A stretch of DNA of 64,000 nucleotides from Xanthomonas sp. GTDB taxonomy: Bacteria > Pseudomonadota > Gammaproteobacteria > Xanthomonadales > Xanthomonadaceae. Positions 1 to 64,000 of the stretch are shown one piece after another. A program made the translations under genes and the position numbers. Location: contig JADFDQ010000001.1 of NCBI GenBank assembly GCA_018262705.1, positions 186,001 to 250,000 on the forward strand. The letters run 5' to 3'. The notes beneath the pieces were generated by a model, which worked only from the letters and a program-made list of their open reading frames with translations, made no database searches and was not told the DNA's origin. Within the stretch, counting starts at the first letter, position 1, and each line of letters opens with the position of its first letter.

Positions 1-517
1 CGGCAATGGCCGCGGCCCAGTTCGGATCGGCGTGGTAGTCGTGCAGGATCGACACCTGCATTCCGCCGCCGTGCGCCGCGATCGCATCGATCATGCTGGC
101 GGTGGTGGTGGACGAATACTGCGGATACAGCGGCAGCACCCGCACCGTGCGCGTTCCGCGCGCGCGCAGCTCGGTCAACGCGCTGGCCAGCGACGGCGCG
201 CCGTAGCGCATCGCATGGCCAACGTCCCACTCGGGCAAACGCTCCTGCAGCGCCCGCGCCAGCGCCGCGGTGTGCACCGCCAGTGGCGAGCCGCCGTCCA
301 TCCAGATGCTCGCGTATTTTTCCGCCACCGCCGGGCTGCGCCGCGGCAGGATGATCCAGCGCAGCAGCGGCTGCCACAGCCAGCGCGGATACTGCACCAC
401 GCGGCGATCGGAAAGAAATTCCGCGAGGTAGGCGGACACCGCTGCCGCGGTTGGCGCGGCCGGCGTCCCGAGGTTGGCAAGAATCAGCGCCGGTCGGGCT
501 TCGGAAGTCTCGGACAT
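1..517 (-). CDS. hemH: Ferrochelatase, N-terminal part (runs off the window)
   Basis: Inserts ferrous iron into protoporphyrin IX, the last step of haem synthesis. Reading the minus strand from the ATG at 517 gives 172 codons before the window edge. Visible family signatures are NLGTP at residues 15-19, the WMDGGSPL stretch near 72-79, MRYGAPS near 103 and LPLYPQYSSTTT near 127-138. The C-terminal half with the catalytic His/Glu pair lies outside. It is divergent from the SYLF-domain gene, with about 107 bp between them. Only the 3' truncation by the window edge limits the call; another haem gene (hemC) lies 20 kb away. Confidence 0.93.
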   Translation of the reverse strand, partial: MSETSEARPALILANLGTPAAPTAAAVSAYLAEFLSDRRVVQYPRWLWQPLLRWIILPRRSPAVAEKYASIWMDGGSPLAVHTAALARALQERLPEWDVGHAMRYGAPSLASALTELRARGTRTVRVLPLYPQYSSTTTASMIDAIAAHGGGMQVSILHDYHADPNWAAAIA

Positions 518-624
518 GCGCATAGAATCGCATGCACGGCAGCATTCTTGCCCGGCTTAAGGAAGATTCATGCCGGACGGGTGAGGATGCCGCTATTCCC
601 CGACCGCATTCAACGGAGATATCG

Positions 625-1434
625 ATGACCGCACGCCCCCTGCGCCTGACCCTCGTTCTTGCCGCGCTGCTCGTCGCCGTCAGTGCCGTCGCCGGCGAAC
701 GCGAAGACAACCGAGCCGACAACGCGCTGCGGGTGATGCGCGAAATTCAGGCAGTGCCCGACTCCTCGATCCCCGACCGCCTGCTCGACGAGGCCCGCGG
801 AATAGTGGTCATTCCCGACACCATCAAGGCCGGCTTCGTTCTCGGCGGACGGCGCGGCCTTGGCCTGATGTCGATCAAGAATCCGGACGGCACCTGGTCG
901 AACCCGGTGTTCGTCAAACTGACCGGCGCCAGCTTCGGCTTTCAGGCCGGCGTGCAATCGGCCGACGTGATCCTGGTCTTCCGCAGCGAACGCGGCCTGG
1001 ACAACATCATCAACGGCAAGATCACGCTGGGCGCCGATGCCTCGGTGGCGGCCGGGCCGGTTGGCCGCAACGCGGCGGCGGCAACCGACGGTTCGCTGAA
1101 GGCGGAAATCTGGTCGTGGTCGCGCGCGCGCGGGCTGTTCGCCGGGATCGCGCTGGACGGCGCGGCGCTGCAGATCGACCACGGCGCCAATCGCAGCGTC
1201 TACGGTTATGGCATCACCCCGCGCATGGTGTTCGAAGGCCGCACGCCCAAACCGGCTTCAGCCACCGTCACCGCCTTCCGCGACGAACTGGAAGAGGCGA
1301 CCGCCGCCGCCCGCAATGCGCGTCGGAACACGCCACCCCCGGCCGCGACTCCGGACGCGGCCACGGCCCACCCGCTGGACTCCAACGCTCCCGCCTCCGC
1401 CGCCCCGCTGCCGGAGCCTTCGGCACAGCGCTGA
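625..1434 (+). CDS. Exported SYLF/Ysc84-domain lipid-binding protein
   Basis: 269-residue protein with an N-terminal signal peptide (hydrophobic residues 7-22, probable cleavage after AVA at 21-23). Residues about 30-210 match the SYLF (Ysc84) family, with the characteristic run ARGIVVIPDTIKAGFVLGG, and GSFGFQ-like and SWSRARGLFAGIALDG segments. The family binds phosphoinositide or other lipids in eukaryotes; bacterial members are mostly uncharacterised exported proteins. The C-terminus (from about 225) is a Pro/Ala-rich tail of low complexity. The ATG at 625 was chosen because an AACGGAG ribosome site precedes it and the signal peptide begins there; a longer upstream frame has no such support. 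It is followed 48 bp later by tatA. Confidence 0.85.
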   Translation: MTARPLRLTLVLAALLVAVSAVAGEREDNRADNALRVMREIQAVPDSSIPDRLLDEARGIVVIPDTIKAGFVLGGRRGLGLMSIKNPDGTWSNPVFVKLTGASFGFQAGVQSADVILVFRSERGLDNIINGKITLGADASVAAGPVGRNAAAATDGSLKAEIWSWSRARGLFAGIALDGAALQIDHGANRSVYGYGITPRMVFEGRTPKPASATVTAFRDELEEATAAARNARRNTPPPAATPDAATAHPLDSNAPASAAPLPEPSAQR

Positions 1435-1482
1435 CATCCGCCGTGGGTTAGAATTGCGGCCCCCACTAACACTGGTGCAATC

Positions 1483-1704
1483 ATGGGCGGTTTCAGCATT
1501 TGGCACTGGCTGATCGTGCTGGCCATCGTGCTTCTCGTGTTCGGCACCAAGCGTCTGACCTCGGGCGCACGCGATCTCGGCAAGGCCGTCAACGAATTCA
1601 AGAAAGGCGTGCGCGGGGACGACGGCAATCCGGCCACGCCGACCAGCGGCGACAAACCCGCGTCGACCCCGGATTCGTCGGGACACGACGACGCCGCGCA
1701 CTGA
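1483..1704 (+). CDS. tatA: Sec-independent protein translocase subunit TatA
   Basis: 73-residue TatA/E protein. One N-terminal membrane helix (about residues 4-20) is followed by the FGTKRL hinge, an amphipathic helix ending near NEFKKGV, and a polar Ser/Thr/Pro tail. TatA multimers form the channel through which folded twin-arginine substrates cross the inner membrane. It is the first gene of a tatA-tatB-tatC-RDD run, 18 bp before tatB. A TAGAAT -10-like box lies at 1449-1454, about 30 bp before the ATG. Confidence 0.95.
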
Positions 1705-1722
1705 CGCCGCAAGGCGGCGCCG

Positions 1723-2025
1723 ATGTTCGACTTCTCGTTCGGCGAAATGCTGGTGGTGGCCCTCGTGGCCCTCGTGGTGCTCGGGCCCGAGCGCCTGCCG
1801 AAAGCCGCGCGCTTTACCGGCCTGTGGGTGCGCAAGGCGCGCGCCCAGTGGTATTCGGTCAAGAACGAGCTGGAACAGGAGCTGGCCAGCGAGGATCTGA
1901 AGCGCAGTCTTGCCGAGGGCCGCAAGGAAATCGAGAACGTGCGCAAGATCGACCTCGACGCGGTGAGCGACGCGCAGGGCACGCCGCCTTCCGAAATGCA
2001 GCCGGAAGCCAGGCGCGATGGCTGA
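1723..2025 (+). CDS. tatB: Sec-independent protein translocase subunit TatB
   Basis: 100-residue TatB. The N-terminus MFDFSFGEMLVVALVALVVL is the membrane helix, followed by the TatB signature LGPERLPKAAR and a long amphipathic/coiled segment (residues 40-85). TatB with TatC forms the receptor for twin-arginine signal peptides. The TatB rather than TatA assignment rests on the GPERLP motif and the position directly upstream of tatC, whose start overlaps the tatB end by 8 bp. The overlap implies translational coupling. Confidence 0.95.
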   Translation: MFDFSFGEMLVVALVALVVLGPERLPKAARFTGLWVRKARAQWYSVKNELEQELASEDLKRSLAEGRKEIENVRKIDLDAVSDAQGTPPSEMQPEARRDG

Positions 2026-2776
2026 TTCGACCAGCGATGCCGAACGCCCGCTGATCGCGCATTTGCTGGAGCTGCGTTCGCGCTTGCTGCGCGGATTCGC
2101 CGGGCTCGGGCTGGTGCTGGTGTGCCTGCTGCCGCTGGCCAACCGCCTCTACTCGCAGCTGGCCAAGCCGCTGCTGGCCAAGCTGCCGGCCGGCGGCCAG
2201 ATCATCGCTACCCAAGTCGCCAGCCCGTTCTTCGCGCCGATGAAGCTGGCGTTCTTCGTCGCCGTGCTGGTGTCGATGCCGTGGCTGCTCTACCAGGCCT
2301 GGGCGTTCGTCGCACCGGGCCTGTACAAACGCGAAAAAAAGCTGGCGCTGCCGCTGCTGTCCTCGGCGCTGCTGCTGTTCTACGGCGGCTGCGCGTTCGC
2401 CTATTTCCTCGTGCTGCCGATGGTGTTCGGCTTCCTCACCCGGGTGGCGCCGGACGGCGTGGCGATGATGACCGACATCAGCGCCTATCTCGACTTCGTG
2501 CTGGTGCTGTTCCTCGCCTTCGGCCTGGCCTTCGAACTGCCGGTGGCGCTGGTCATCCTCGCCCTGCTCGGCTGGGTCACCCCTGCGCAGCTGCGTGAAG
2601 GGCGTGGCTACGCGATCGTCGGCATCTTCATCGTCGCCGCAGTGCTCACCCCGCCGGACGTGGTCAGCCAGCTGATGCTGGCGATCCCGATGTGCCTGCT
2701 CTACGAGGCCGGCATTCTCGCGGCGCAGTGGGTGGCGCCGCGCCCGAAGGCCGGCGCGGCCGATGACGCCCCCTGA
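2018..2776 (+). CDS. tatC: Sec-independent protein translocase subunit TatC
   Basis: 252-residue polytopic membrane protein with about six hydrophobic helices, matching the usual TatC length. Conserved features are the N-terminal HLLELRSRLLR segment, SMPWLLYQAWAFVAPGLYKREKK (the cytoplasmic signal-peptide binding loop) and FGLAFELPV with its buried Glu. It is the core signal recognition subunit of the Tat translocase. It overlaps tatB at its start and the following RDD gene at its end by 14 bp, so the four genes are probably one operon. Confidence 0.96.
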   Translation: MADSTSDAERPLIAHLLELRSRLLRGFAGLGLVLVCLLPLANRLYSQLAKPLLAKLPAGGQIIATQVASPFFAPMKLAFFVAVLVSMPWLLYQAWAFVAPGLYKREKKLALPLLSSALLLFYGGCAFAYFLVLPMVFGFLTRVAPDGVAMMTDISAYLDFVLVLFLAFGLAFELPVALVILALLGWVTPAQLREGRGYAIVGIFIVAAVLTPPDVVSQLMLAIPMCLLYEAGILAAQWVAPRPKAGAADDAP

Positions 2777-3467
2777 TCGCCAGCCCGCGGGTTTCTGGCT
2801 GCGCTACGCGGCCTGGTCGCTGGACGCCGTCTGCTTGTTGCCGCCGCTGCTGCTGCTCGGGCTGCCGCTGCTGTGCGCGGCGCTGGCGCAGGCCAAAGAT
2901 GCCATCCAGGCGCTGAGCGCCGACATGACGACGCTGCTCGAAACTGCCGTGACGCAGGGCCAGACGCCGTTTGCGATGGCGCTTTCGATGCTCTCGGATC
3001 CGCACATGACCTCCGCCGTGGATCGCCTGTCTTCGGCGCTGACGTCGCTGGCGCTCGTGCCGCCCCTGCTCTATGCGCTGCTGGCCTGCCTGTGGTCGGT
3101 GGGCTTCGAAAGCTCCGGTTGGCAGGCCACGCCCGGCAAGCGCGCTTTCGGGCTGGTCGTGGGCAACGAACGCGGCGAGCGTCTGCGCCCATTGCCGACG
3201 CTGACGCGATTTGCGGCCGCCGGCCTGTCCTGGCTGACGCTGAACTTCGGCCACGCCATGGCCGCCTTCAAGCCGCATCTGGCCCTGCACGACCGGCTGA
3301 GCCACACCCGCGTGCTGGTCGAACCGGAGCACGCTGCGCTGCCGCTGTGGGGCCGGGCGTGGCTGCTGGCGCAGGCGCTGGCACTGGTCATCGGCATCGC
3401 CTGGGGATTTGTCGCGCTGCAGCGCTGGATGCAAGGATTGATGGAACAGGCGCTGTCGGGAATCTAG
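2763..3467 (+). CDS. RDD-family membrane protein
   Basis: 234-residue inner-membrane protein. It begins with a GFWLRYAAWSLDAVCL helix carrying the conserved Arg and Asp of RDD proteins. Further helices lie near residues 95-120, 150-165 and 200-222, and there is a TPGKRAFGLVV motif around residue 127. RDD proteins have no agreed general function; some have been linked to ion or sodium transport. It overlaps the tatC end by 14 bp, so it is cotranscribed with tat genes, but nothing in the sequence shows a role in Tat export. Convergent with the next gene at 4400-3480. Confidence 0.85.
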   Translation: MTPPDRQPAGFWLRYAAWSLDAVCLLPPLLLLGLPLLCAALAQAKDAIQALSADMTTLLETAVTQGQTPFAMALSMLSDPHMTSAVDRLSSALTSLALVPPLLYALLACLWSVGFESSGWQATPGKRAFGLVVGNERGERLRPLPTLTRFAAAGLSWLTLNFGHAMAAFKPHLALHDRLSHTRVLVEPEHAALPLWGRAWLLAQALALVIGIAWGFVALQRWMQGLMEQALSGI

Positions 3468-3479
3468 GTCGCGGCTCGG

Positions 3480-4400
3480 TCAGGCTTCGAGGTGGTGCAC
3501 CGGTGTCGGCTTCGCCTCTTCGCCGAAGGTATCGCGCCACGCCAGATAGGCCGCGCCGGTGACCAGCACCAGCGCGGTGACGGCAAAACCCAGCATCACC
3601 AACGCCGCCAGCAGGCTGCCGACGATTGGATGGATCAATCCGCCGAGCAGCGCCAGCAGGCCCGCCACGAGACCCGCCACCAGCGCAGCAACGAGCAATG
3701 CACCGATGAACAGCACGGCGGCCAGCAGGTGCGCGGCAACGTTGTGCAGCGCCGCCTGCAGCGCCGCCTTCAGCGCCTGCAGCAAGCCGAGGCCGGAGAA
3801 CTGCATCAGTGGAATCGACAGCAGCAGCAGCGCATAGCTGAAGTAGTTGAAGACCATCTGTGCGAGAAAAATCAGTCCCGGATGCTGCGGTTCCGGCAGC
3901 GCCGTGACCCCACCTTCCAGCGCAGACGACATCGCCTTCAGGTAATCCTGCCAGTAATCGGTTCCGGCCAGACCCACCGCCAGCGCGCCGCCGAATACGG
4001 CCAGCACCACCTGCACCAGTCCCAGCCAGGCCAGCTTCTGGCCGTGCTCGCTGCGCAGCGGCGCAAACAAATCGCGCGCCCGCACCGGGCGTTCGGCTTC
4101 GGCTTCGCGAATCACGTGCATCAGCCCGCCGAGCAGGATCGGAACCAGGAAAATGATCAACAGCGCCATCGCCAGCGCAACCAGCATCAGCAGGTGAATG
4201 TCGGGCGTCTTGTCCTGCGCCGTCGCTTCACCGCCGACCAGCAGCGACAGCACCAGCGCCATCGCCAGCACCGCCGCATATAGCGTGGCGATCAGCAACA
4301 TCGCCGCGCCGAATACGGCGCGCGGATTTTTCGATCCGAGCTCGACGGACAGCCGAAACCACGCCAGGCCCTGGGTGGCCGGCAACCTGCGAATTTCCAT
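3480..4400 (-). CDS. BPSS1780-like multi-pass membrane protein
   Basis: 306 residues with six hydrophobic segments: about 28-58, 70-95, 120-145, 180-200, 215-245 and 250-285. The N-terminal RRLPATQGLAWFRLSVELGSKNPR stretch resembles the BPSS1780 family of uncharacterised proteobacterial membrane proteins. The family's function is unknown. The ATG at 4400 is the only sensible start. It is separated by 42 bp from the glutamine amidotransferase upstream on the same strand, so the two may be cotranscribed. No catalytic motif is visible. Confidence 0.7.
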   Translation of the reverse strand: MEIRRLPATQGLAWFRLSVELGSKNPRAVFGAAMLLIATLYAAVLAMALVLSLLVGGEATAQDKTPDIHLLMLVALAMALLIIFLVPILLGGLMHVIREAEAERPVRARDLFAPLRSEHGQKLAWLGLVQVVLAVFGGALAVGLAGTDYWQDYLKAMSSALEGGVTALPEPQHPGLIFLAQMVFNYFSYALLLLSIPLMQFSGLGLLQALKAALQAALHNVAAHLLAAVLFIGALLVAALVAGLVAGLLALLGGLIHPIVGSLLAALVMLGFAVTALVLVTGAAYLAWRDTFGEEAKPTPVHHLEA

Positions 4401-4442
4401 GGACCGCCTCGATTCGGACGCGCAAGAATACCGGAGTTCGCG

Positions 4443-5153
4443 TCAACGGCGGGCGTGGCGGACGAACCGGCGCAGCACCCGACGCGCATCCGGCGCTGCG
4501 TCCACGCCATCCAGCAGCGTCTGCGCACCGACGCCCTCATCGGCCAGCGCCTCGGCGCGCGCGCGGATGTAGCCGCGCATGTGCTCGGCACTGAACTCGG
4601 GGTGGAACTGCACGCCCCAGGCCGCTTTCCCGCAACGCATGGCGTGACAGCCATCGTGGGCATTGGAGGCCAGCACCACCGCGCCCGGCGGTGGCCGCAG
4701 CACGCTCTGGCGGTGGGTCGACTGCACAAGCAGCGGGCCGGAAATACCGGAAAACAGCGGATCGTCGGCCGCTGCCGGCGACAGGTCGAGGGCGACCGTT
4801 CCCATCTCCCGCCCGTTCGGGTTGTAGTCCACCTCGCCGCCCAGCGCGTAAGCCAGCAGTTGATGGCCGTAGCAGATGCCCAGAATCGGCAATCCCGCAG
4901 CGGCCGCGGCGCGCAGCCAGTCGGCGCAGCGCTCGCTCCAGTCCAGGTGCTCGGTCACCATCGCCGCCGAACCGGTCACGAACACGCCGGCGAAGCCTTC
5001 GCGCGTGGGCAGCGCTTGGCCGCGCTCGACATCGATGGCGATCGCCGCGTCGCGCTCCAGGCCGGCCGCCACGCGGATCCAGTGCGCGAAGCTGCCGTAG
5101 CGACGCAGTGGCTGCGCGGGATGACCGGTTTCGAGGATGAGGAAGGGTTGCAT
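4443..5153 (-). CDS. Class I glutamine amidotransferase-like protein
   Basis: 236-residue stand-alone GATase-1 domain. The nucleophile Cys94 lies in LGICYGHQ and the partner residues His184 and Glu186 in VQFHPEF, so the Cys-His-Glu triad is complete. Such domains hydrolyse glutamine to deliver ammonia, or act as gamma-glutamyl hydrolases or peptidases. The length and the GMP-synthase-like fold fit the family often annotated as glutamine amidotransferase of unknown acceptor. There is no synthetase partner in the neighbourhood, so the substrate is not known. Divergent from glyQ. Confidence 0.82.
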   Translation of the reverse strand: MQPFLILETGHPAQPLRRYGSFAHWIRVAAGLERDAAIAIDVERGQALPTREGFAGVFVTGSAAMVTEHLDWSERCADWLRAAAAAGLPILGICYGHQLLAYALGGEVDYNPNGREMGTVALDLSPAAADDPLFSGISGPLLVQSTHRQSVLRPPPGAVVLASNAHDGCHAMRCGKAAWGVQFHPEFSAEHMRGYIRARAEALADEGVGAQTLLDGVDAAPDARRVLRRFVRHARR

Positions 5154-5353
5154 TCCGTGGTTGCCGTTGAGTGGATGCGCCAGAGGCGAAGCCGTGGGTG
5201 TCGTCGTGCAGTTCGGCTGCAGCTGTTCGTCGATGGGCAGGCGAGGCGGGCAGGACAGCCCGCCGACCCGAATCGGAGCAGGACGCCCCGACTGGGGGTC
5301 GCCGCCCTCGGCGGACAGGCACAGCGCGAACCGGGATCAAACGGACGCACACT

Positions 5354-5359
5354 TATACT
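5354..5359 (+). promoter_or_regulatory. Probable -10 element of glyQ
   Basis: TATACT sits 30 bp before the glyQ ATG in the 235-bp divergent gap. No convincing -35 hexamer is visible at the expected spacing, so the promoter is inferred from the -10 match and position. Confidence 0.5.
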
Positions 5360-5388
5360 AGCGAGTCGCCTCGCCACTTTCAGCACAC

Positions 5389-6297
<909 letters not shown>

Positions 6298-62085: not shown

Positions 62086-62091
62086 TACCAT
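62086..62091 (+). promoter_or_regulatory. -10 box seven bases before phhA start
   Basis: TACCAT, then GGGTCGC, then ATG at 62099. Another leaderless-type arrangement; the longer upstream ATG at 62090 would lie inside the -10 box. Confidence 0.4.
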
Positions 62092-62098
62092 GGGTCGC

Positions 62099-62989
62099 AT
62101 GAACGCCCAGCCTCGCCGCACTGAAAACATCCAGACCGACCGCGGCTCGGTCCCCGTCTACACCACTGCCGTCGTCGATCAGCCTTGGGAGCAATACACA
62201 ACGGTCGATCATGACGTCTGGCGCCAGCTCTACGAGCGCCAGCGCAATGTGCTGCCGGGCCGCGCCTGCGAAGCGTTCCTGCGTGCGCAGGACACCATGC
62301 GGATGTCGCCGGATCGGATTCCGAAATTTTCCGAACTCAACAAAGTGCTGGGCGACACCACCGGTTGGCAGATCATCGGCGTCGAAGGGCTGCTGCCGGA
62401 GCTGGATTTCTTCACCCATCTGGCCAACCGTCGCTTCCCCGTCACCTGGTGGATCCGGCGACCGGATCAGATTGACTACATCGCCGAACCGGATCTGTTC
62501 CACGATCTGTTCGGTCACGTCCCGCCGCTGATGGATCAAACCTTTGCCGACTACCTCGTCGCCTACGGTCAGGGCGGCGTCAAGGCCCACGGCCTCGGAC
62601 AGGATGCGCTGATGCAGCTGGCGCGGCTGTACTGGTACACGGTCGAATTCGGACTGATGCGCGAGAACGGCCAAATGCGCATTTATGGCGCCGGCATCGC
62701 CAGCTCGGCGGGCGAGTCGGTCTACAGCGTCGAAAGCAACTCCCCGAACCGGATCGCCTTCGACCTCGAACGGATCATGCGCACCCGCTACCGGATCGAC
62801 AGCTACCAGAAGACCTATTTCGTCATCGACAGCTACGAGCAGCTGATCGAGGCCACGAAGCCGGATTTCACCCCGATCTACGCGCGGGTCGGCGAACTGC
62901 CGCTGCTGGCCGCAGGCACCGTGCTGGAAGGCGATCAGGTGTTCCAGCGCGGTAGCGGCGAAGGCTGGCCGGACGACGGCGACGTCTGA
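62099..62989 (+). CDS. phhA: Phenylalanine 4-monooxygenase
   Basis: 296 residues. Converts phenylalanine to tyrosine with tetrahydropterin and oxygen. The iron ligands are His135 and His140 (HDLFGH) and Glu183 (YWYTVEFGL), all present. IPKFSELNKVL and the GWQIIGVEGLLPELDFFTHLANRRFPVTWWIR segment are typical. ATG 62099 is used; ATG 62090 is in frame nearby. The second folE upstream may supply its pterin cofactor, though tetrahydromonapterin is the likely natural one. Confidence 0.95.
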   Translation: MNAQPRRTENIQTDRGSVPVYTTAVVDQPWEQYTTVDHDVWRQLYERQRNVLPGRACEAFLRAQDTMRMSPDRIPKFSELNKVLGDTTGWQIIGVEGLLPELDFFTHLANRRFPVTWWIRRPDQIDYIAEPDLFHDLFGHVPPLMDQTFADYLVAYGQGGVKAHGLGQDALMQLARLYWYTVEFGLMRENGQMRIYGAGIASSAGESVYSVESNSPNRIAFDLERIMRTRYRIDSYQKTYFVIDSYEQLIEATKPDFTPIYARVGELPLLAAGTVLEGDQVFQRGSGEGWPDDGDV

Positions 62990-63044
62990 AGGGTGCGGGT
63001 TTCCGCCCCGCCTGAGGAGTGCGGCGAAAGATACCCTCTGGCAG

Positions 63045-63148
63045 CCTGTCGCGGTTGCCCACCCTGTGGGGCAAATGTCCCCCGGCATCCGCTTGCTGCG
63101 GATACCTCCTCCTTGATTTTGCCCCACAGGGTGGGCAACCGCGACAGG
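63045..63148 (-). repeat. Nested palindrome element, copy 1 (31-bp outer stem)
   Basis: Outer arms 63045-63075 and 63118-63148 are a perfect 31-bp inverted repeat. Between them, read on the minus strand, are the 13-bp segment ATCAAGGAGGAGG, a 6-bp hairpin (ATCCGC/GCGGAT) and the 11-bp segment CCGGGGGACAT. The two internal segments are shared exactly with copy 2, while both stems differ. It lies in the 386-bp gap between phhA and fbp. Confidence 0.85.
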
Positions 63149-63200
63149 CGAAGCGTTCCCGGCGACAGATCTGGTGGGCATTTTCGTGCGAAATGTAAAG

Positions 63201-63297
63201 GCATGGCCGGGGGTCTTTGGGTGCGAAATCAAGGAGGAGGCGACGACCGCAGGTCGTCGCCGGGGGACATTCGCACCCAAAGGGCACCGGTCATGCC
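63201..63297 (+). repeat. Nested palindrome element, copy 2
   Basis: Outer arms share a perfect 13-bp core (63215-63227 with 63270-63282) extended imperfectly to about 63201 and 63297. Inside are ATCAAGGAGGAGG (63228-63240), a 10-bp hairpin (GGCGACGACC/GGTCGTCGCC, 3-nt loop) and CCGGGGGACAT (63260-63270). It is oriented opposite to copy 1. Shared loops with different stems suggest a structured nucleic acid rather than a simple duplicated sequence. Confidence 0.85.
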
Positions 63298-63375
63298 TCC
63301 GCCACAGCACCCGACAGCAGCCCTCAAAACTGCGCTATGGGCGACAATAGTCCTCGCCATGCTCCGGAAGACCCC

Positions 63376-64000
63376 ATGACGACGCACGCAAACATCGCAC
63401 TCACCCGTTTCCTGATCGAACAGCAGCGCGCCGGTCGGATCAATTCCGAACTGCGGCTGCTGGTCGAGGTGGTCGCACGCGCCTGCAAACAAATATCCGT
63501 CGCCGTCGGCAAGGGCGCGCTCGGCGGCGTGCTGGGCGACGCCGGCACGCCCGGCCACGCCAGCATCAACGTGCAGGGCGAGGCGCAAAAAAAACTCGAC
63601 GTGCTCAGCAATGAAATCCTGCTGGAAGCCAACGCCTGGGGTGGACATCTGGCGGGGCTTGCCTCCGAGGAAATGGACACTTCACAGCCGATCCCGGACA
63701 CATACCCGCACGGCAACTACCTGCTGCTGTTCGATCCGCTCGACGGCAGCTCCAACATCGACGTCAATATTTCGGTCGGCACCATCTTTTCGGTGTTGCG
63801 CTGTCCTGAAGGCGTGTCTTCGCCGACCGATGCCGATTTCCTGCAGCCTGGCACGGCGCAGGTCGCTGCCGGCTACTGCACCTACGGGCCGAGCACGATG
63901 TTGGTGCTCACCGTCGGCCACGGCAGCCATGCCTTCACCCTCGACCGCGAGGTCGGCAGCTTCGTGCTGACCACCCGCGACATGAAGATTCCCGAGGAGA
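63376..64000 (+). CDS. fbp: Fructose-1,6-bisphosphatase class I, N-terminal part
   Basis: Runs off the window after 208 codons. It hydrolyses fructose-1,6-bisphosphate in gluconeogenesis. Visible signatures are the metal-binding [29 protein letters not shown] (with the Asp/Leu-Asp-Gly-Ser catalytic site) and [18 protein letters not shown] at 63376 follows a GACAAT box at 63343-63348. The nested palindromes lie directly upstream. Confidence 0.95.

Follow-up and report, generated by a model that had tools for sequence, protein, structure and literature searches.

A dispersed repeat family of inverted nested hairpins in Burkholderiales and Lysobacteraceae, best read as a REPIN-like miniature element

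Upstream of fbp in the analysed stretch of Xanthomonas sp. DNA (64 kb at its full length, hereafter the window), two inverted nested hairpins have been characterized, and the two are members of a large repeat family of Burkholderiales and Lysobacteraceae. The best reading of this family is a new REPIN-like miniature element; it is laid out as a REPIN but lacks the GTAG tag, and no Y1 partner was found for it. The pair in the window is considered, with about even confidence, to be one copy of such a dispersed, non-autonomous element, which a putative mobiliser would spread. The family is organized as a doublet unit, with sharp ends in Variovorax paradoxus, and its sites are occupied in some genomes and unoccupied in others; the stems covary around a fixed unpaired core, the fold is strand-specific, and the copies show no coupling to Y1 transposase genes.

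Each half is a nested hairpin with three parts: a variable outer stem of about 30 bp, an asymmetric internal loop of near-fixed sequence, whose two sides read RTMAAGGnGGA and GGRGGACA, and an inner hairpin that is again variable. Two such halves in inverted orientation would constitute the inserting unit, usually located near gene 3' ends. According to the proposed mechanism, the ATCAAGG strand of each half, folded as a single strand, would be recognised by a putative nuclease or transposase-like protein, reading the unpaired GGnGGA and GGRGGACA bases. Both stems would be needed only as shape, and so would be free to change as long as they remain paired. Natural variation already tells the fixed bases (unpaired core) from the shape-only ones (stems). 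A link to RAYT-type transposases is common for dispersed palindromes, and the element family departs from it; two points are thereby made testable, the non-Y1 spread of bacterial palindromes and the action of repeats as ssDNA or RNA.

The features of the locus are listed in Table 1. The exact motif pair ATCAAGGAGGAGG-N{5,35}-CCGGGGGACAT has two matches in the window, at 63075-63117 (-) and 63228-63270 (+), and none in 100 shuffles of it. The CM R1 matches are 63039-63153 (-) for copy 1, with 105.2 bits, and 63192-63306 (+) for copy 2, with 92.7 bits. Both palindromes lie where an earlier, sequence-only reading of this stretch had placed them, and the inner segments ATCAAGGAGGAGG and CCGGGGGACAT are identical in the two copies. 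The same reading called the stems unrelated, which is correct for their sequence but not for their nature, as they represent the same structural parts of one family. Beyond the 31 perfect pairs of the copy 1 outer stem, a 32nd pair (63044/63149) is visible in the sequence; in copy 2, 14 pairs are unbroken, the 14th being G.T, and the longer stem is imperfect. In the fold of copy 1, the last two G of the 5' core ATCAAGGAGGAGG are paired to the CC of the 3' core. The 299-aa ORF, which by eye we take to be phenylalanine 4-monooxygenase, has matches in 24 of the 25 genomes of the genus.

Table 1. Parts of the doublet and its flanking genes, in window positions
Feature	Position	Strand	Basis
Flanking gene, 299-aa ORF	62090..62989	+	ORF list
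Whole doublet, two nested hairpins, inverted (- then +)	63039..63306		CM R1 matches
Copy 1, 3' outer arm on ATCAAGG strand	63045..63075	-	fold; 31 perfect pairs with 63118-63148
Copy 1, conserved 3' core CCGGGGGACAT	63075..63085	-	motif match
Copy 1, inner hairpin, 9 bp, 5-nt loop	63084..63106	-	fold
Copy 1, conserved 5' core ATCAAGGAGGAGG	63105..63117	-	motif match and fold
Copy 1, 5' outer arm	63118..63148	-	fold
Spacer separating both hairpins	63149..63200		sequence
Copy 2, 5' outer arm (14 bp unbroken beside core, then mismatches and further pairs)	63201..63227	+	fold
Copy 2, conserved 5' core ATCAAGGAGGAGG	63228..63240	+	motif match
Copy 2, inner hairpin, 10 bp, 3-nt loop	63239..63261	+	fold
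Copy 2, conserved 3' core CCGGGGGACAT	63260..63270	+	motif match
Copy 2, 3' outer arm	63270..63296	+	fold
Flanking gene fbp (name from the sequence-only reading; start codon by eye), runs off the window	63376..64000	+	sequence

The exact motif pair is present in at least 117 stretches of other genomes, and the genera concerned include Variovorax, Luteimonas, Stenotrophomonas, Lysobacter, Pseudoxanthomonas, Thermomonas, Rhodoferax, Hydrogenophaga, Aquabacterium and others. The pair is thus not unique to the window, and the earlier suggestion of a repeat family in relatives is borne out. Copy numbers per genome are lower bounds, with 10 to 150 candidates scored in each: at least 112 CM matches in V. 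paradoxus G060 (150 candidates scored), at least 76 in G069 and at least 13 in the window's own genome, G000, the window lying in G000:C11. CM matches are present in 26 of the 60 relatives but in 3 of 31 genera, in 4 of 369 genomes of a class sample (ten candidates scored per genome) and in 67 of 150 genomes of the Variovorax family. Some CM matches are 142-143 nt long, with about 28 extra internal bases (G022:C1:545450-545592 and G012:C6:235980-236121).

Phage records yielded none with the element, as opposed to four Variovorax plasmid records; in these megabase-size replicons (NZ_CP138514, NZ_CP138516, NZ_CP070344 and CP063167) the unit or a piece of it occupies 15 places, and three plasmid regions that were inspected are without annotation. 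In IMG/VR, the exact motif has been identified in one contig and a looser motif in two. A 39-kb contig classed as viral (IMGVR_UViG_3300036715_002841, locus 1-5721) carries one copy; this contig may be bacterial DNA, the adjoining long ORFs looking bacterial by eye (acyl-CoA-ligase-like, and others).

Neighbouring copies are arranged almost uniformly. Among pairs less than 400 bp apart, 66 of 68 are -/+, one is +/- and one +/+, a count that includes a few places fetched twice. In most Variovorax doublets the cores are 110-113 nt apart and the arms about 40 nt apart. The V. paradoxus unit, of about 265 bp, has sharp ends, with GTTCAGGGCGCG at its start and the inverse GCGCGCCCTGAAC at its end; its alignment (27 rows representing 24 distinct doublets, as three rows are the same place fetched twice) gives a mean identity of 0.95 and 0.91 in two inner blocks and of 0.49-0.68 in the outer blocks, unit edges included. 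By DNA search, about the same stretch of some 265 bp (query 502-770) is scattered over at least 20 genomes, among the Variovorax matches listed. The inverted terminal motif GTTCAGGGCGC is present in V. paradoxus and could not be made out in other genera. A stem closing the doublet as a whole was considered and rejected, since the flanks of 61 doublets pair no better than mismatched partners (flank score of at least 10 in 8 of 61 own doublets versus 12% of cross pairs); the Variovorax terminal motif is therefore conserved as sequence and does not covary. Inspection of the unit ends by eye revealed no target-site duplication, and the ORFs between two distant hairpins (L051, L086), inspected as a candidate autonomous version, include no transposase recognisable by eye. 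At the left unit end in L290 and L256 the terminal motif GGCGCTGTTGTTCAGG is tandemly repeated, as if one end of some units grows by slippage. An array of five copies (-,+,-,+,+), resembling a BIME cluster, is located at 4950-5719 of L060.

The position of the units relative to genes was assessed with a home-made ORF caller, and the rows are partly orthologous, so that not all are independent. The units lie between convergent (49), co-directional (49) and divergent (9) genes; their flanks are formed by 147 gene 3' ends (median distance 44 bp) and 67 gene 5' ends (median 122 bp), 20 of 127 units are inside a called ORF, and 21 more are at locus ends. Lone copies between co-directional genes (17 in the same and 21 in the opposite orientation) have no orientation bias toward the neighbouring genes. 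A recurrent neighbour gene was sought and rejected: several of the 12 largest clusters are orthologous sites, and none is widely shared (the largest contains 5 proteins).

Comparison of orthologous loci indicates that the window doublet is an insertion and not a conserved fbp regulator, because no CM match occurs at the 23 other orthologous phenylalanine-hydroxylase loci of the genus, some of which are cut by contig ends. The spacer up to fbp measures 389 nt in the window and 136, 148, 121, 152, 70, 321, 63, 1161 and 52 nt in the nine relatives with fbp in the locus, hence 52-152 nt in seven of the nine; in 14 further relatives fbp is absent from the retrieved locus. Both flanks of the window site align in six relatives, with a shorter gap; the site is empty in the relatives, its exact junction being hidden by divergence. 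The sequence-only reading had allowed a regulatory role for fbp, and the end of copy 2 does lie 79 nt upstream of the fbp start. The empty loci, the short spacers and the remaining copies, which adjoin unrelated genes (the few recurring neighbours inspected are mostly orthologous sites), all speak against it. A doublet acting as a conserved regulator of fbp or of phenylalanine-4-monooxygenase is hardly credible on this evidence; such a conserved function is refuted, while a local effect is possible.

At one Variovorax site the unit is present in six genomes, absent from G098 (113 versus 421 nt) and internally deleted in G104; these are the 8 of 30 loci that resolve (six occupied, one empty, one deleted), the flanks being 961-1263 nt apart in three others and a single flank being present in 19. 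Mobility is suggested here by occupied versus unoccupied orthologous sites. At orthologous sites the arms may differ greatly and yet pair, and some copies are decayed, such as L289, with 6-8 broken pairs compared to its orthologues. One intergenic site in different genomes (L106 and L147, which are one place, L129 and L130) has differing arms and a similar core, reflecting either repeated insertion or rapid coordinated change of the arms.

On the ATCAAGG strand, the DNA folds of the window copies reach z scores of -12.9 (copy 1) and -9.3 (copy 2), and the RNA folds -12.5 and -8.1, respectively, all beating 200 of 200 dinucleotide shuffles. In a first alignment of 67 exact-motif copies, 91.1% of stem cells are paired, compared to 61.8% in shuffles and 37-43% in slid controls, with both-side changes in 34 of 38 pairs. 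These rows were obtained from 138 exact-motif copies, of which 136 had full flanks and 74 remained after thinning; seven (L019, L021, L030, L040, L047, L104 and L117) were omitted by choice. Alignment of 72 CM matches, which was fitted to the model, gives 94.1% of stem cells paired versus 58.6% in shuffles, and covariation in 36 of 37 pairs. The 40 loci behind this set were hand-picked, mostly higher-scoring, and at least one (L385) duplicates a place of the first alignment (L107). An inner-stem pair that is constant in the first set covaries among the CM matches (G-C to A-U, 12 cells). Paired substitutions have thus been identified in other copies for all stems, as the earlier proposal of covarying stems around conserved loops had anticipated.

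Conservation of the core was read from the CM-found copies because the first search had imposed the exact core; 71 of the 72 rows were used, one reverse-strand echo being left out. The consensus is RTMAAGGnGGAG and CGGRGGACA. The eight G of both GGnGG blocks vary in 3 of 568 cells, whereas the linkers vary in 20 of 71 copies on the 5' side and 18 of 71 on the 3' side; the contrast is informative because the model had seen all these positions invariant. The likeness of AAGGAGG to a Shine-Dalgarno sequence, noted earlier, looks incidental, as the base after AAGG is variable and, by eye, neither window copy has a suitably spaced start codon. In the loop, UCAAGGAGGA fits a CsrA/RsmA consensus; a CsrA/RsmA site was nevertheless rejected, the base after AAGG and the C being variable. 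The two G-rich sides also invite a joint claim, which is rather improbable: a quadruplex-duplex hybrid would be the recognised form of a mobile-DNA class moved by a non-Y1 protein. In this hybrid an outer duplex would be followed by GGnGGA facing GGRGG across the inner duplex, and the four GG runs, separated by variable one-base linkers, could form a G-quadruplex of two tiers within one strand.

The mismatches in the outer arms indicate which strand folds. Across 237 copies, read on the ATCAAGG strand with no pairing filter, there are 527 G.T versus 57 A.C mismatches. One-step differences between nearest copies (219 of the 237 copies, arms at least 75% paired, G.T being scored as a pair, a possible bias towards G.T) amount to 156 G.T, 27 A.C, 29 G.A, 6 C.T, 18 G.G and 6 C.C, in addition to 113 double changes preserving a Watson-Crick pair; the G.T versus A.C difference has a p of 3e-23, and the unfiltered count shows the same bias. 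A strict set of 133 isolated events comprises 97 G.T, 12 A.C, 10 G.A, 2 C.T, 7 G.G, 4 C.C and one T.T. Folds of the arms only favour the ATCAAGG strand in 222 (RNA) and 224 (DNA) of 237 copies. The bias has the same direction in six lineages, namely Luteimonas, Stenotrophomonas, Rhodoferax, Hydrogenophaga, Variovorax and the genus group of the window, and it is weakest in this group (57 versus 18). Chance hairpins in the same DNA are at about 1:1 (167/170 and 176/171 G.T/A.C for two control heads), and canonical GTAG-type REPs, a small control with n=53, have no G.T excess (7 G.T, 11 A.C); a second REP control consisted of 15 recurrent hairpins of only 4 sequences. The asymmetry together with the strand-favoured folds means that a single-stranded fold, as RNA or ssDNA, and not a cruciform, is kept while the letters change. 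Strand-biased mutation could also produce the G.T part, but accounts less readily for the excess of G.A and G.G. The G.T/A.C asymmetry provides a simple test, based on sequence only, of which strand's fold is kept, and is applicable to other palindromic repeats.

A double-stranded element, that is a cruciform or a protein-binding palindrome (gyrase, IHF or Pol I site) whose arms are kept similar by template switching, is very unlikely and already largely refuted by this asymmetry, since its strands should be equivalent, yet G.T exceeds A.C by 9:1 on one of them and the arms-only folds prefer the same strand. The palindromes are indeed long and near-perfect, and template switching can create paired changes. 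Binding of proteins such as gyrase, IHF or Pol I by BIMEs and REPs has been described (excerpt of PMC2817692). The main rival to the REPIN-like element is a structured RNA family, a possible though doubtful reading in which each hairpin would act at the RNA level, for instance by stabilising 3' ends, as a terminator or by binding a protein, and its DNA copies would be scattered 3'-UTR parts. It is favoured by the strong excess of G.U over A.C on one strand in six lineages, by the lack of such an excess in the small REP control, by the closeness to gene 3' ends, by the very stable RNA folds and by the smaller G.G bias (18 versus 6; strict set, 7 versus 4), which fits RNA better than DNA. However, the ATCAAGG strands of a doublet point outward on opposite DNA strands, so that no one transcript has both favoured folds, and the lone copies occur in either orientation to their neighbouring genes. 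The Rfam gathering score was reached in the window only by one tRNA elsewhere and by nothing in ten loci with copies; below threshold, copy 1 has four matches, which fall to two miRNA hairpin families. Furthermore, G.A exceeds C.T (29 versus 6; strict set, 10 versus 2), as predicted by DNA and not RNA energies. Each energy model fails for one mismatch class, RNA predicting no G.A bias and DNA predicting the largest bias for G.G. The balance leans towards ssDNA over RNA, without certainty; the ATCAAGG strand would then take part in mobilisation in the form of ssDNA, not of RNA, and a dedicated protein presumably exists. Both suggestions of the sequence-only reading, a REP-like mobile palindrome and a structured RNA or single-strand DNA, survive.

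Movement of the family in trans by a non-adjacent Y1 (HUH) transposase of the RAYT or TIRYT kind, as a REP or TIR family, also has to be weighed, and appears unlikely. The inverted doublets, the extragenic placement and the hairpins with fixed unpaired bases fit RAYT-REPIN logic, GGGGACA of the exact core resembles the TIRYT consensus GGGGWSAS (excerpt of PMC3733652), and a Y1 gene is present in 12 of 14 element-bearing genomes picked by locus. On the other hand, the conserved core has no GTAG/GTGG tag, and by CM the element is absent from all 76 Y1_Tnp loci (about 1.5 kb on each side; 29 of the first 30, 17 of 17 and 30 of 30, these being the Y1 places with a retrieved locus) as well as from two further Y1 loci of G000 and G012 (L252, L253). 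According to tallies made by hand from match listings, Y1 is present in 51 of 67 element-positive versus 61 of 83 element-negative genomes of the Variovorax family (Fisher p 0.85) and in 18 of 26 versus 23 of 34 relatives (p 1.0), and the element-rich genomes G621 (24 copies), G499 (21), G553 (19) and G539 (16) have no Y1 match. The Y1 loci instead carry GGGGTCAG motifs (21 of 30), and the Y1 gene of the window's genome lies amid canonical GTAG-type repeats.

A reverse transcriptase (PF00078) was likewise rejected as partner: in the same kind of hand tally it is found in 28 of 67 element-positive versus 35 of 83 element-negative genomes, and there is none in V. paradoxus G060 despite its 112 matches. 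Among the Y1 transposases and reverse transcriptases tested, no mobiliser for the element was found. The Y1 gene of the window's genome is RAYT-like and located at about 1620-2500 of L252 (G000:C17:189000-193500), among GTAGGAGCGCACC / GGTGCGCTCCTAC repeats; these GTAGGAGCGCACC-type repeats represent a canonical REP-type system, separate from the nested-hairpin element.

The REPIN-like element shares with REPINs and BIME-1 a repeated unit in the form of an inverted doublet (the -/+ pairs and the unit of about 265 bp), a copy number from tens to over 100 per genome, with most copies outside genes and close to gene 3' ends, and a hairpin with fixed unpaired bases. In contrast to their halves, which are 20-40 nt hairpins with a GTAG/GTGG tag, its half is about 100 nt long, with two stems and a purine-rich internal loop; the stem sequence is free, and no adjacent or co-occurring Y1 transposase has been found. 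The 71 CM-found copies do not have GT[AG]G at the hairpin foot, and none of the 76 Y1_Tnp loci shows a cognate Y1 gene flanked by the repeat. The element resembles MITEs as a scattered, non-coding unit of about 265 bp with an inverted terminal motif and sharp ends in V. paradoxus; terminal inverted repeats with discrete ends were not seen in other genera. Unlike for MITEs, no target-site duplication was noticed by eye, no parent transposon was found, and the terminal motif is not evident elsewhere. Integron attC sites are recognised as a folded single strand, their structure being kept while the stem sequence varies, and have the consensus boxes RYYYAAC/GTTRRRY. The present element is similar in its kept structure and varying stems, but these boxes do not occur among its conserved columns.

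Among the results listed for topic searches of open-licence PMC text, there is no description of a nested-hairpin family, and the core strings led only to papers on unrelated subjects. Inverted REP doublets have been linked to RAYTs (excerpt of PMC2817692), ssDNA processing of canonical GTAG-type REPs has been proposed in print, and Y1 enzymes and REP types, some of the hairpin-bulge-hairpin kind, have been classed (excerpt of PMC6006769; Quentin 2018). GTAG REPs and TIRtrons with GGGGWSAS repeats have also been described (excerpt of PMC3733652), including a self-complementary S. maltophilia TIR family found at short distances (same excerpt; Di Nocera 2013); the TIRYT TIR families are probably subclass 2.1 of Quentin 2018 (PMC6006769). 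The element is like the TIRtron TIRs in its GGGGAC-containing motif, and self-complementary, paired members exist among the TIR families, as in S. maltophilia ORF1152 (excerpt of PMC3733652). Unlike them, it was not found flanking a TIRYT gene or beside Y1 genes at the loci checked, its core reads GGRGGACA followed by T instead of GGGGWSAS, and of 30 Y1 loci 21 carry GGGGTCAG motifs and none the nested-hairpin element. A distant link to the S. maltophilia TIR family is possible, the K279a repeats being compared by their description in the excerpt only. The GGGGTCAG motifs (L157-L180) often flank the gene on both sides in inverted orientation, a TIRYT pattern in print. The TIR beside the S. rhizophila Y1 gene (L245) is a different sequence from the element: its 56-nt terminal repeats, 91% complementary, lie at 1299-1354 and 2216-2271 and contain two tandem copies of a TAACrGGGACGGrGGTAGTTAA-like motif.
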